Positions 19,114 through 36,009 of a stretch of 64,000 nt of DNA are shown piece by piece; position 1 is the first letter of the stretch, and every line of letters begins with the position of its first letter. The translations under genes were made by a program, and so were the position numbers. The stretch is from assembly GCA_016192525.1 (NCBI GenBank), contig JACPTZ010000168.1, positions 1 through 64,000 of the forward strand. Reading direction: 5' to 3'. The notes below the pieces were generated by a model. It saw only the letters and a list, made by a program, of their open reading frames with translations, was not told the origin of the DNA and did no database searches. This stretch comes from Planctomycetota bacterium (GTDB lineage Bacteria > Planctomycetota > MHYJ01 > JACPTZ01).

Positions 19114-19764
19114 ATGCCGGATGCCGCTCCCCCCCCCCCGATCGAGTCCGGTCCCCCGATGGTGCCCCCGGCCGAGAGCGCCGCCGGCCGCCTCCCGATC
19201 GGATGGAAGCTCCTCTTCGCCCTCGGCGCGGCGGCGTTTGTCCTCGCCCTGGTCTTCGACGACGAAATCTCGAAGTTCATCACCTCGCATCGCCCGGAGA
19301 AACTCGATCCCTTCGTGATTCTCATCACGTCGTGGAAGTGCGAGGTCGCCATCCTGCTCGTCCTCTCGACCGGGATCCTGGCCCTCCGGCGGCGGAACGC
19401 CCTCCTCTTCACCTGGGGGACCTTTCTCGTCGGCGAAGTGATCGGAACCGCCATCAAGTACGGCGTGGGACGGCGGCGGCCGTACATCGCCCACGACGTG
19501 ATCGAAAACCTCGTCGAGGAATCGACCCCCAGTTTCCCGAGCAATCACTCGCTGGCCCTCTACACCGTGGCCTTCGCGCTGGGGTGGTGCTTTCCGAAAC
19601 TGCGGGGAGTGGCGCTGGCGTGGGCGACCCTGATCGCGTTCACACGGATCTACGTCGGGGTGCACTACACCTCGGACGTCCTGGGCGGGGCGTTCCTCGC
19701 CGTCGGTCTCGTGTGGCTGGCGAAGCGGCACTGCGGGGAATGGGCCCGGAGGACGGAGCCATGA
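19114..19764 (+). CDS. PAP2-family membrane phosphatase
   Basis: 216-residue integral membrane phosphatase. The three PAP2 catalytic motifs are present: KYGVGRRRP, SFPSNHS and RIYVGVHYTSD. About five membrane segments surround them. Family members act on undecaprenyl pyrophosphate, phosphatidic acid or sugar phosphates; the substrate is not predictable here. A C11 tract falls within the first dozen codons (MPDAAPPPPIESG), so indels there would frameshift the gene. The start is set by AGGAG 8 bases upstream. The stop overlaps the next ATG (ATGA), so the two genes are translationally coupled. Confidence 0.85.
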   Translation: MPDAAPPPPIESGPPMVPPAESAAGRLPIGWKLLFALGAAAFVLALVFDDEISKFITSHRPEKLDPFVILITSWKCEVAILLVLSTGILALRRRNALLFTWGTFLVGEVIGTAIKYGVGRRRPYIAHDVIENLVEESTPSFPSNHSLALYTVAFALGWCFPKLRGVALAWATLIAFTRIYVGVHYTSDVLGGAFLAVGLVWLAKRHCGEWARRTEP

Positions 19765-31490: not shown

Positions 31491-33149
31491 TCATCGAGGT
31501 CTCTCCATCGCCCGTCGTTGCCGCTCCTCCACATCCCTCCTCACCTGGTCAATCTCTTCGAGTGCCTTCACTGCCTCCGCCCGAACCGAGGCGTCGGGAT
31601 CGGATTGCGCGATCCTCTCGAGGTCGGGGCGGTAGGTCGGATCCCGCTCCGGCCATCCCCAAAGCACGTCCTGATAGTAATGAACCAGCGCGCTCCGAAC
31701 CGACGACGATGAGTTTGCAGACAACTCGACCCGCAGCAAATCGAATTCGGACACGTCCTCGTCAGGGTTGAGACTCGCCATCAGGAACGATCCGACTCCG
31801 GCGCGCACGGCGTCACTCGGGTCCGAACGGAGAATCTGGAGCAAGACGTCCTTCTCACCGAGATCGAACACCCGAAGCCGGCGGACCGCGGCGCGACGGG
31901 CGCTCTCAGGCATATCCACCGACCGGGCGACCTCCACAAAGAAGGAGTTCTCCGCCGGCGGAATGGCGACGGCGAGGGCCGTGAACACCCGCTCGCTGAC
32001 CCGCCCGGCGTCCGTGCGCGTGTCTACATCGGGATGCGCGCGCCAATAATCCTTGAGCCTGGCTGTGTCATCCCGTGTCAGGGGCTCGCGATCCTGGACC
32101 TCGAGCAAGGCGTCGGCGGCATTCTCCGCCCTCCATTTCAGGAACGAGTCGCCGCCATGCGGCAGAAGCGCGTAATCAAGGAGCATCTCCACACGCTCGT
32201 GCCCCTTCACATAAAGCAGGAGATCCAGGTGAGCCATCATCGACGTGAACATCCCGATGGCGTTTCGCGAGGGGCGCGCCTGGTCGACGAACTCCCTCAG
32301 TCGCGCCGCGTCCTGACCCTCCACGGCGAATACGAGGTCGTTCCGGCGAGCCGCCCAATCCAGACGCCTCAGGAAGTCCATGACCAGGGAGGGCGGGAAC
32401 TCAGCAGACGCGTTGCTGCCGACAGGAGATGTCAGGAGATCGATGGCGTCACTCGTCTCCATGTTCCAAAGGCGCAGCAGCAGCTTCCAGTCCTCATCCG
32501 TCGATCGAGGGGCGCTCGTGCCCAAGGCCGACGCGATGAACGCCGCGTTGGAGTCCCCTTGCGCGAAGTCCACCTGAAGCAGGGCATCCACCAGCATTTC
32601 CCTCTCCTCTGGCGGAATCGCGACCATCAACCTCTCCTCGAGTCGATCGAGGGTCTCGTCGTCGCCCTTTCGGCTCGCCGCGATCATCTGATCAACCAGG
32701 GCCTGAATGTCCGGAGGAAAAGTCGGAGGGGTCGGAGGAAAGATCCCGACGCTCACAGGATCCCCTCTCGAAGCGGGAGGCATGTCGGAATACACCGGAG
32801 CCTTCCTGCTCCCGGCGGTCTCCCGTGTCCATCCTCCGTGTCTCCGAAAGACCCATTCCCCGGGGGGAAGGGACTTCTTCCGGGACTTGATCTCCTTTAT
32901 CCGTTCGGTCGCCCACCGCATCGCGTCGCCGTCGTAGGTCGACCCTCCGCGCATGGGCTCCACGGGGGGATCTCGCGGGTCCTTCACGGCGGGCCCTACA
33001 ACAGGGTGGGGGCGCAGTCCGTCGGATGGACGTTCGGCGATGGGAGCATGGACCGATTCCATTTCCGACGACGACCATCGCCATGCAAGCGCGGCCAGAA
33101 TCGTCAGGACAAACAGGAGACCGGCTGTTTTCCGCGGAGCGCTCATCAT
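31491..33149 (-). CDS. Membrane-anchored HEAT-like repeat protein
   Basis: 552 residues with an N-terminal hydrophobic segment (TAGLLFVLTILAALAWRW), a Pro-rich stalk to about residue 140, and helical repeats to the C-terminus. The last repeats are clear HEAT type (DPSDAVRAGVGSFLMASL; SSSSVRSALVHYYQDVL; DPDASVRAEAVKALEEID). Its ATG at 33149 overlaps the stop of the Pmp-like gene (ATGA), so the two are co-translated; they probably act together at the cell surface. Base composition is slightly less GC-rich than the neighbouring operons. Function unknown. Confidence 0.7.
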   Translation of the reverse strand: MMSAPRKTAGLLFVLTILAALAWRWSSSEMESVHAPIAERPSDGLRPHPVVGPAVKDPRDPPVEPMRGGSTYDGDAMRWATERIKEIKSRKKSLPPGEWVFRRHGGWTRETAGSRKAPVYSDMPPASRGDPVSVGIFPPTPPTFPPDIQALVDQMIAASRKGDDETLDRLEERLMVAIPPEEREMLVDALLQVDFAQGDSNAAFIASALGTSAPRSTDEDWKLLLRLWNMETSDAIDLLTSPVGSNASAEFPPSLVMDFLRRLDWAARRNDLVFAVEGQDAARLREFVDQARPSRNAIGMFTSMMAHLDLLLYVKGHERVEMLLDYALLPHGGDSFLKWRAENAADALLEVQDREPLTRDDTARLKDYWRAHPDVDTRTDAGRVSERVFTALAVAIPPAENSFFVEVARSVDMPESARRAAVRRLRVFDLGEKDVLLQILRSDPSDAVRAGVGSFLMASLNPDEDVSEFDLLRVELSANSSSSVRSALVHYYQDVLWGWPERDPTYRPDLERIAQSDPDASVRAEAVKALEEIDQVRRDVEERQRRAMERPR

Positions 33150-35773
33150 GGCTCCTGGGGCCCGATCGGATCGGGAACTTCTGTTTCCCATGGATCGTAC
33201 AACACGCCTGGAGACACCTTGTCTCCATAAAACTGTGGATTCGGATAGGGAATGACGAGGGGGCCGGTCGCCTTTCCCCACCAATTCTGACGCGCGTCGA
33301 TCAATGACGTCGGAGGCTGCACGCCGGCGGAGATGTCCACCCACGCTCCATACTGCGAGTGCCCTGCGATGGAACACTTCCGGACCGCAATGCTGGACGC
33401 AAACCCGGCGCGGATTCCCACGGGACTCAAGGCGCCGTCGAAGACCGTGCGTTCGAGGGTCGCCTTGCCGTGCGACTGAAAGGAACTCTCCACGAGATTG
33501 AACTGAACCGGAGCCTGGGTTCGGAAGAGGCAGTATTGGACGAGCACGTCCGAGGCATGCAGGTACATTCCGGCGGTCGTAACGGCCTTGATTTCGCTGT
33601 TCGCCATCTCAAAGGCCGGCTTGAAGCCAAGCACGCCGTGGGCGAACTCCCCGTCGATGTCGAGACGGTCAAAGAGGACATTGCCGCGGTTTCGGGCCTT
33701 GTCGATCAGCCAGACCGCGTTTGTGCCCCGGAAATCGCTTCGTTCGAGCTTGTTCGGCCCCGCCAGGGCGCGGGCCAGCTCGCGCCCGGCAAACTGAAAT
33801 CCTGTGTTTGAAGAGAACTTGACGTTTCTCGCCGCGAGCGCGATCGGAGGGTGCGCGCCATTTGCGAAGACGGCGCTTCCCTCTGCCGTCGAGATGTTCT
33901 GATCGAAGAGAATGGTCTTGCCTTCGCCGCCGTCGATATCGAGCGTGCCCAGCATCCAGACGGTGATGCCGCCGCCCCCCTTCGGGGCTTCATTCTTCGT
34001 CAGTGAGATCCGATCGCGCAACCTCAGAACAGCACCAAGATCCGAGACGAAGGCTGCTCCTCCTTGGGACGACGTGTTTCGATCAAAGACGATACCGACA
34101 GCGCCTCCCCCTCCTCGACAATCAACTCTTGTGAATTCTTGAACGCAGATCCCGCCCCCTAGCCCGCTCAGCGCGATGTTGTGCTCAAACACACTTCCTG
34201 CTTCAAGAGTTACAGTCGTTTCCTGAGTCGCCAGTATCCCCCCCCCATGCTTCAATGAGGTATTGTCCTCAAACCGCGTCTTTCCTCGCAGCGTCGACCG
34301 TTCCGCGTAGATTCCCCCTCCAGATCCCGTGGCTGAATTCTCCTTCAGGGTCGTTTCATTCAGGAGCGTCACGTTCGCGCATGCGGACAAGAAGAGGGCC
34401 CCGCCTCGTCCCCTGGAGCCCTGTCCCGCGCCTTGTGCCGCATTCTTGATGAACTGCACGCCGTCGATTCGGATCAGCGGCGAGATCGCGCTTACCGCGC
34501 CTCCGTTCCCCTTGTCTGCGTGATTGTCCTCAAAGGCCCCGCCCGCGGCGAGGAGGGGCGCATTCTGGAGCAGGAGGGCGCCGCCGTCTCCCTTCGCCCG
34601 GTTGTGGCGGAAATTCGAACCGTTCAGTTCGAGAATCGAACCGTTTGCCGCGTAGATGGCGCCTCCGCTGCTTCGCGCCTCATTGCGCTCGAAGTCGACC
34701 GTCTTGAACTCGGCTACCGAAAAGTCGATGACACACCCCGCGCCTGTACTGCTCTCGATGTGATTGCGCACGAAACCGCCTGTCATGGTGAATTGACTCT
34801 GACCCGACACGGCGATGCCGGCTCCGAGATCAGCGATGTTTCCGTCGAACTCACAGCCCTCAGCCTCCACGTTGCTTGCGTCGGCGACCGCCAGCGCCCC
34901 TCCCCTTCCCTGCACACTCATGTTCTTGACCTGGAACTTGGACGTCAGAAGACGCGCGGATTGAACGTTCCGCATGCAGACGGCGCCGCCGTCACCATCC
35001 GCTCGATTCTCCTCGAAGACGCAGTCGTCGATTGTCATCCGATTCCGCGTGGCGAAGATGCAGCCGCCGTCCCCGCCGAAGGCCTTGTTCAATCTGTTAA
35101 CGTGATTCGACACGTAGTTGATGTCGCAGTTGTCGAACGCACACGCGCCACCCGCCCCTGCGTCGTTCGAGGAGAATTCGGAGACCTCAATCCTCCCAGT
35201 GATGTTCACGGCCCTGATGGCCCCCCCGAGACTTCCCCCGAGGGCGTGGTTCCCGGTGAAGTGACAATTCGTGACCTGAAGTGTGCCGGCACTCTTATGG
35301 ATCCCGCCGCCTCCCCCGGAGGCGCTCAATCCTTCAAAGCAGCAGCCCGACACGTCCAGGTGGCCGCCCCCGCTGTGGATGCCCGCGCCTGAACCCGATA
35401 TCGCGTTGCCGGTCAGCGTCAACCCTCTAATCGTGGCGCTTCCCGCGCAGGTGAAAATCGGGCCGGCGCCGGATCCCGTGATCGTCGCGCTGCACGGGAA
35501 GTCGAAAAACGTGAACTCGGGCATGCCGAACGGCCCGCCCGGATCGGGGACGACGGCGACAATTCCGCCGCGGACGATGGAACCATCCGGCAGAGTGATC
35601 GGGTCTTCAGGATAGGTATTGGCGTTGATCCACAACTCGAAGGGAACGAAGCCCTGGCTCACGGCGTAGTCCACGGCCGACTTGACGGTCTGGTACGCCT
35701 CGGGGACGTCCTTGGCGACAACGAAGGTGTACTCGCTCTGCCCCCATGCTCGGTCAAGCGGCGCGAAAAGCAC
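33146..35773 (-). CDS. Pmp-like beta-helix surface protein, start separated by poly-G
   Basis: Secreted right-handed beta-helix of 875 residues from the in-frame GTG. It has many FxxN and GGA(I/L/V) repeats (for example GGAV, FEENRADGDGGAV, FRHNRAKGDGGAL, FEDNHADKGNGGAV, GGGI), the motif pair that defines chlamydial polymorphic membrane proteins. No autotransporter barrel follows; the end holds QNWWGKATGPL, common in beta-helix proteins. The GTG falls inside the signal peptide (HKAILWIAFVLFAPLDRAWG). The apparent true start is ATG 35936, with GGGAGGG 5 bases upstream and a promoter behind it. It is one base out of frame because of G14 at 35853-35866. With 13 G the protein would have 929 residues and a complete signal peptide. 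Confidence 0.75.
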   Translation of the reverse strand: MLFAPLDRAWGQSEYTFVVAKDVPEAYQTVKSAVDYAVSQGFVPFELWINANTYPEDPITLPDGSIVRGGIVAVVPDPGGPFGMPEFTFFDFPCSATITGSGAGPIFTCAGSATIRGLTLTGNAISGSGAGIHSGGGHLDVSGCCFEGLSASGGGGGIHKSAGTLQVTNCHFTGNHALGGSLGGAIRAVNITGRIEVSEFSSNDAGAGGACAFDNCDINYVSNHVNRLNKAFGGDGGCIFATRNRMTIDDCVFEENRADGDGGAVCMRNVQSARLLTSKFQVKNMSVQGRGGALAVADASNVEAEGCEFDGNIADLGAGIAVSGQSQFTMTGGFVRNHIESSTGAGCVIDFSVAEFKTVDFERNEARSSGGAIYAANGSILELNGSNFRHNRAKGDGGALLLQNAPLLAAGGAFEDNHADKGNGGAVSAISPLIRIDGVQFIKNAAQGAGQGSRGRGGALFLSACANVTLLNETTLKENSATGSGGGIYAERSTLRGKTRFEDNTSLKHGGGILATQETTVTLEAGSVFEHNIALSGLGGGICVQEFTRVDCRGGGGAVGIVFDRNTSSQGGAAFVSDLGAVLRLRDRISLTKNEAPKGGGGITVWMLGTLDIDGGEGKTILFDQNISTAEGSAVFANGAHPPIALAARNVKFSSNTGFQFAGRELARALAGPNKLERSDFRGTNAVWLIDKARNRGNVLFDRLDIDGEFAHGVLGFKPAFEMANSEIKAVTTAGMYLHASDVLVQYCLFRTQAPVQFNLVESSFQSHGKATLERTVFDGALSPVGIRAGFASSIAVRKCSIAGHSQYGAWVDISAGVQPPTSLIDARQNWWGKATGPLVIPYPNPQFYGDKVSPGVLYDPWETEVPDPIGPQEP

Positions 35774-35852
35774 GAACGCGATCCAGAGGATTGCCTTGTG
35801 CGCGACGTACCGGCGTCTCGACGCTACTCTGGAAGTCTGCCCGGGTGGCGCT

Positions 35853-35866
35853 GGGGGGGGGGGGGG
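35853..35866. repeat. G14 homopolymer, likely phase-variation tract
   Basis: Fourteen G on the plus strand (C14 in the mRNA sense) lie right after an ATG at 35870. With 14, the upstream start reads into a different frame, and the beta-helix frame meets a TGA made by the tract edge. Removing one base joins the start, Pro run and signal peptide in one frame. Such tracts slip during replication. Confidence 0.7.
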
Positions 35867-35981
35867 TCATACTCGAGATGTCAGAAAGCGACGAGGTGAG
35901 CGTCGACGAATCGGCGGCGATCGAGCAGTGCGACATGATGTCCCTCCCGGGGAAGAAACTGTCCAATGCGGCAACCCCGTC

Positions 35982-36009
35982 AGTCTACATCGAACGCGCC
36001 GGATTGCAA
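35982..36009 (-). promoter_or_regulatory. Promoter of the Pmp-like/HEAT operon
   Basis: Reading leftward, TTGCAA (36004-36009), 16 bp, TAGACT (35982-35987), about 45 bp before the ATG at 35936 that has a strong Shine-Dalgarno sequence. It supports the upstream start rather than the GTG at 35773. Confidence 0.55.

Follow-up and report, generated by a model that had tools for sequence, protein, structure and literature searches.

A start-proximal poly-C tract as a candidate on/off switch for a Pmp-repeat beta-helix protein in a planctomycete

Results

A 14-C tract separates a start codon from a signal-peptide and repeat frame

The 64,000-nucleotide stretch of DNA analysed here (the window) carries a run of 14 cytosines lying between the start codon of a gene and the reading frame for its signal peptide and Pmp-type repeats. 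On balance, we favour the view that this tract is a translational contingency locus captured in its OFF state. The coding strand is the minus strand, and the tract is thus poly-C in the mRNA sense and G14 on the plus strand. The features of the locus are as follows.

35982–36009, minus strand: weak sigma-70-like promoter, TTGCAA-16-TAGACT
35941–35952, minus strand: leader CCCCGGGAGGGA with Shine-Dalgarno GGGAGGG; an identical 12-mer stands just before the ATG of paralogue C39
35934–35936, minus strand: ATG, proposed start codon of the full protein; homologous leader and ATG in C39
35853–35866, minus strand: 14-C homopolymer, proposed slip site, lying between the start frame and that of the signal peptide and passenger
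35754–35936, minus strand: open reading frame as assembled with 14 C (OFF product), 60 residues and then TGA at 35756–35754
35741–35818, minus strand: signal peptide in the passenger frame, RRRYVAHKAILWIAFVLFAPLDRAWG followed by QS, typical by eye and with its cleavage site placed by eye
33146–35773, minus strand: passenger frame of 875 codons, counted from an internal GTG, with Pmp-type FxxN/GGA repeats of beta-helix type
31491–33149, minus strand: downstream gene whose ATG overlaps the passenger stop (ATGA), encoding a HEAT-repeat protein that has a membrane segment at its N-terminus

The minus strand reads, in order, leader CCCCGGGAGGGACATC, ATG 35936, 22 more codons (the last of which is itself ATG), a single A and the 14 C; the sequence immediately upstream of ATG 35936–35934 is CCGGGAGGGACATC. 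The signal-peptide/passenger frame begins APPGQTSRVASRRRYVAHKAILWIAFVLFAPLDRAWGQSEYTF directly 3' of the tract and is one frame off the start frame, so that a tract of 13, 16 or 10 C would put start and passenger in one frame. A preliminary description of this DNA had given the tract, the ATG, their coordinates and this frame arithmetic correctly, and the signal peptide and 875-residue passenger that it placed just beyond the tract are present with their frame intact. The promoter it called good is weaker than that, matching 8 of 12 consensus bases and escaping a scan at a 9-of-12 threshold.

A TGA immediately before the run closes off the passenger frame on that side, and between the tract and GTG 35773 this frame contains no ATG, GTG or TTG. 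Translation might begin elsewhere in this frame, at GTG 35773 or at a rare start, in which case the upstream ATG would be irrelevant and there would be no switch. GTG 35773 does lie in the right frame, but it sits in the middle of the hydrophobic core of the signal peptide, and starting there would forfeit the positive n-region; no other ATG, GTG or TTG intervenes before the tract, and C39 starts at the homologous upstream ATG. We give this possibility almost no credence.

Paralogues support the start codon, and one carries its own out-of-frame tract

The window gene belongs to a four-member family in its genome (with C39, C71 and C164). C39 is 35% identical to it over nearly the whole length and has the same leader arrangement, CCCCGGGAGGGA-N3-ATG; in a 464-kb sequence set (the window plus a 400-kb sample of the genome) this 12-mer occurs once, at the window gene itself. 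C39 lacks a C run and reads in frame from the leader-linked ATG through its signal peptide, which resembles that of the window gene in the passenger frame only (shuffle p 0.0045). Because C39 shares the leader and reads in frame from its ATG, ATG 35936 is the likely start, bearing out the start codon proposed earlier. The N-terminal extension 5' of the tract has no protein-level similarity to C39 in any frame, and the start homology therefore rests on the leader.

In C71 the order is GGAGG-7-ATG-GCAG-C11: the C11, at C71:144557, begins 7 bases after the first base of the GGAGG-linked ATG, and this frame stops after 11 codons. The signal peptide and beta-helix of C71 are one frame off, shifted the same way as those of the window gene, the tract being one base too long, although the two tracts lie at different distances from their starts. 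An in-frame ATG about 14 bases upstream lacks a ribosome site, which makes an OFF state of C71 probable, not certain. Since only about seven genes genome-wide have start-proximal runs of at least 11, two tracts within a four-member family are unlikely to have arisen by chance. The proposal that homologues be compared for the tract thus received a divided answer: C71 has one (C11), C39 and the distant homologues do not, and C164 is cut at a contig end with its start missing.

C164 contains an in-frame TAA (L060:2789-2791), beyond which 192 codons keep their match to the family, and is a possible pseudogene. This sign of family decay would suit a fixed frameshift, a recent loss of the window gene by slippage in the run with no switching back. 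We regard such a loss as quite unlikely: the remaining 875 codons are stop-free, the operon partner is intact, and a 14-C run, given the known slippage behaviour of such runs, would itself be likely to revert.

The passenger is a Pmp-repeat beta-helix protein without a Pmp barrel

The passenger frame runs uninterrupted to 33146 and ends in an NWWG-type C-terminus without a barrel. It matches PF02415 at 63.7 bits (cut-off 20.6) and TIGR01376 at 43.2 bits (cut-off 15), and weakly NosD, whereas the Pmp middle domain (PF07548) and the autotransporter barrel (PF03797) gave no match at E up to 1. By these matches, the protein is Pmp-like in its FxxN/GGA repeats, as originally described, and, lacking both the middle domain and the barrel, is not a Pmp. 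The passenger is presumably secreted and may be exposed on the surface. An AlphaFold2 model from the single sequence reached a pLDDT of 38 and was set aside, and a PDB profile search gave one weak, uninformative match. The ATGA overlap suggests that the passenger and the HEAT-repeat gene are probably translationally coupled; a HEAT-repeat-type neighbour also follows C39, C71 and C164.

RpoB of this organism is 62–67% identical to that of planctomycetes and mostly 50–55% identical to that of others, which places it in Planctomycetota and agrees with the non-chlamydial lineage named at the outset. Among the genomes compared, this genome alone represents its genus and family, and no close relatives of the beta-helix gene were confirmed in GTDB genomes. 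A search of 392 genomes of the phylum yielded distant beta-helix matches only, but many of them. These distant homologues have no start-proximal tracts, and the N-terminal family (the ITGSGAGPIFTC block) was not found outside this genome. In another planctomycete, two Pmp-repeat copies (L234 and L236, at G033:C45 and G033:C61), both at contig ends, carry a G9 within the GGG motif, and in both the frame is broken at the G9.

Long C runs exceed chance and occur in frame in housekeeping genes

Markov models of order 1–5 built on the 464-kb set predict about 0.02–0.07 runs of at least 14 C per 464 kb, or about 0.01 or less per 64-kb window. Across the whole genome, 40 runs of at least 11 were observed against about 6–19 expected, a total that includes some plain artefacts. 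Pure C runs are not accounted for by a preference for CCC, which makes up only 34% of the proline codons here, against 58% for CCG.

Having a C run that encodes proline close to a start is partly a habit of this genome. Start-proximal runs stand in frame in genes for PabB (C11), an ABC exporter (C13), a PAP2 phosphatase (C11), a DEAD-box helicase (C21) and a 2-oxoacid:ferredoxin oxidoreductase (C9). As housekeeping genes carry such runs in frame, a start-proximal tract alone is no proof of a switch. We considered and rejected the idea that every long C/G run is one, given these in-frame runs and several that resemble artefacts: a C48, a C37 beside an N gap and a C11 at a contig end (L033 at C76:39024, L029 at C69:34609 and L027 at C44:1, respectively) have the appearance of artefacts from poly-G reads in the assembly. 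In the PAP2 gene (window 19129–19139) the C11 directly follows three close ATGs in three frames, one of them in frame. At L022 (C3:46945), the frame of a YqaA-like membrane protein has no nearby start, and the nearest ATG precedes a C11 in another frame.

Some full-length protein might also be made from the 14-C allele itself, by programmed +1 ribosomal frameshifting or transcript slippage on CCC-C. This sequence is recognised as +1-prone for tRNAPro (PMC4519876, PMC7577736), and in both family members with a tract the offset is one that a +1 shift would correct. With only two possible offsets, however, a shared one in two genes is weak evidence; m1G37 normally suppresses +1 shifts at CCC-C, and the housekeeping genes with C runs stay in frame. 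We consider this mechanism very improbable.

Run lengths elsewhere in the assembly usually hold

An error of a single base would be enough to produce the observed frame break. As a yardstick, we asked whether the frame holds across runs inside other genes of the same genome. It was kept in 22 of 23 clear cases for in-gene runs of at least 9, and in 12 of 13 for runs of at least 11, the exception being a C15 (L055). All ten runs of 9–10 in the 464-kb set kept frame, with no true break, and the longer frame-keeping runs include two C13 (L034, L056) and a C14 (L049). Apparent frame shifts at window runs 11190 and 59197 proved to be boundaries of neighbouring genes and were discounted. Run lengths in this assembly are thus usually correct, and with 22 of 23 in-gene runs keeping frame, assembly error is not the default explanation.

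Still, the true run might be in frame and the gene ON, with the tract varying or not, if the assembled or sequenced length is wrong. A 14-base G/C homopolymer is difficult on any platform, the assembly does contain artificial-looking runs (the C48, and the C37 before the N gap), and the yardstick thins at 14–15 bases, where L049 keeps frame and L055, another in-gene run, breaks it. On the other hand, the 22 clear cases of coding runs of 9–14 keep frame, and C71 shows the same one-base offset at a run of only 11. We judge a length error unlikely.

Runs between promoter-like boxes elsewhere in the genome

Four other runs of 11–12 G/C (G11, G12 or C11) lie exactly between -35-like and -10-like boxes:

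L023: spacer run, TTGACA-19-TATATG
L059: spacer run, TTGACA-20-TATATG
L038: spacer run, TTGACA-19-TATGTT
L024: spacer run, TTGACG-18-TAGGAT

By chance, 0.18 such runs would be expected, and four were reached in 0 of 500 flank shuffles. L023 and L059 stand upstream of paralogous genes and differ by one G, and in two of the four cases (L023 and L038) the gene that follows has a clear signal peptide. These four runs are candidate promoter-spacer switches. Their resemblance to promoter-spacer contingency loci raises the prior for the window tract as a switch. More broadly, start-proximal poly-C in beta-helix genes of the Pmp-repeat type and poly-G/C spacers in the promoters of further genes for secreted proteins could together form a phasome, a wider set of random switches, a suggestion that we make tentatively and hold to be possible but doubtful.

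The spacer-run loci map to L201 (C18:34687), L205 (C217:5342), L203 (C92:7151) and L024 (C23:2135). At L201 and L205, about 100–330 bases past the promoter-like site, the paralogous genes for glycine-rich secreted proteins are interrupted by an in-frame TGA in matching position (GT*HDF.IQC), after which the homologous frame continues.

Discussion

In the reading that we prefer, the 14-C run would be a start-proximal contingency tract whose length is altered by replication slippage. Only in one of three registers would ATG 35936 share a frame with the signal peptide and Pmp-repeat passenger, giving a secreted protein of about 930 residues in ON cells, and the assembled population consensus would represent an OFF register from which cells could return. 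OFF cells would probably also make less of the HEAT-repeat partner through polarity, given the ATGA overlap with the passenger stop. The switch first proposed for this locus has kept its tract, frame logic, start and repeats and gained the out-of-frame C11 of C71 and the spacer runs, while the protein itself, though it has Pmp-type repeats, is not a Pmp. Counted against it are the tract-free C39, the unequal tract positions, the housekeeping runs and the distant homologues without start-proximal tracts.

If the tract varies, homopolymer on/off switching of a Pmp-repeat protein would extend beyond Chlamydia into Planctomycetota, a member of the same superphylum. This would suggest that switching of this type in surface-type beta-helix proteins has an ancient origin or else evolves anew with ease, and that environmental bacteria, too, are served by contingency loci of the pathogen style. 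A phasome, if real, would bring pathogen-style variation to a lineage not known as pathogenic, its target perhaps being phages, predators or cell-cell contact. Our literature search, incomplete in its coverage, found no study of phase variation in planctomycetes.

Neisseria porA is a known promoter-spacer tract switch. In Chlamydia lpxC, a poly-A tract lies between -35 and -10 (PMC4514472). The four loci with G/C runs between -35/-10-like boxes resemble both systems, whereas the window's own tract is translational and lies outside the promoter. Prokaryotes in general have homopolymeric tracts at gene 5' ends, mostly of A/T, and poly-C/G runs of more than 2 bases are generally under-represented in the genomes surveyed (PMC2831843). 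As in Listeria inlA and Bacillus swrA (PMC2831843), the window run lies near the start and slippage would yield a short dead peptide; unlike most such 5'-end tracts, it is poly-C. With planctomycete right-handed beta-helix/NosD-like secreted proteins the passenger shares the repeat scaffold and NWWG-type C-terminus, and it differs from the distant homologues in the start-proximal tract of its gene and in the N-terminal block found in this genome only.

The closest parallel is with the pmp genes of Chlamydia. The poly-G phase variation of these genes invoked in the preliminary description is documented: poly-G/poly-C tract frameshifts are common in pmpG-group genes and have been interpreted as phase variation (PMC6740158), and an earlier hypothesis had the Pmps of C. 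pneumoniae vary in phase through homopolymers (PMC4514472). For another chlamydial gene, raw reads with an OFF majority of 10 G have been recorded. Like C. pneumoniae pmp10 and the pmpG group of C. abortus, C. psittaci and C. felis, the window gene encodes a large protein with FxxN/GGA(I,L,V) repeats, its frame is set by a long coding G/C run, and its genome holds tract-bearing and tract-free paralogues, some of them off frame. In contrast to the chlamydial genes, it encodes no Pmp middle domain or barrel, its host is a planctomycete, and its tract, seen here in assembled sequence, is C on the coding strand where theirs is mostly G. The class of mechanism is thus a known one, for which the host lineage and a barrel-less Pmp-repeat protein are new.
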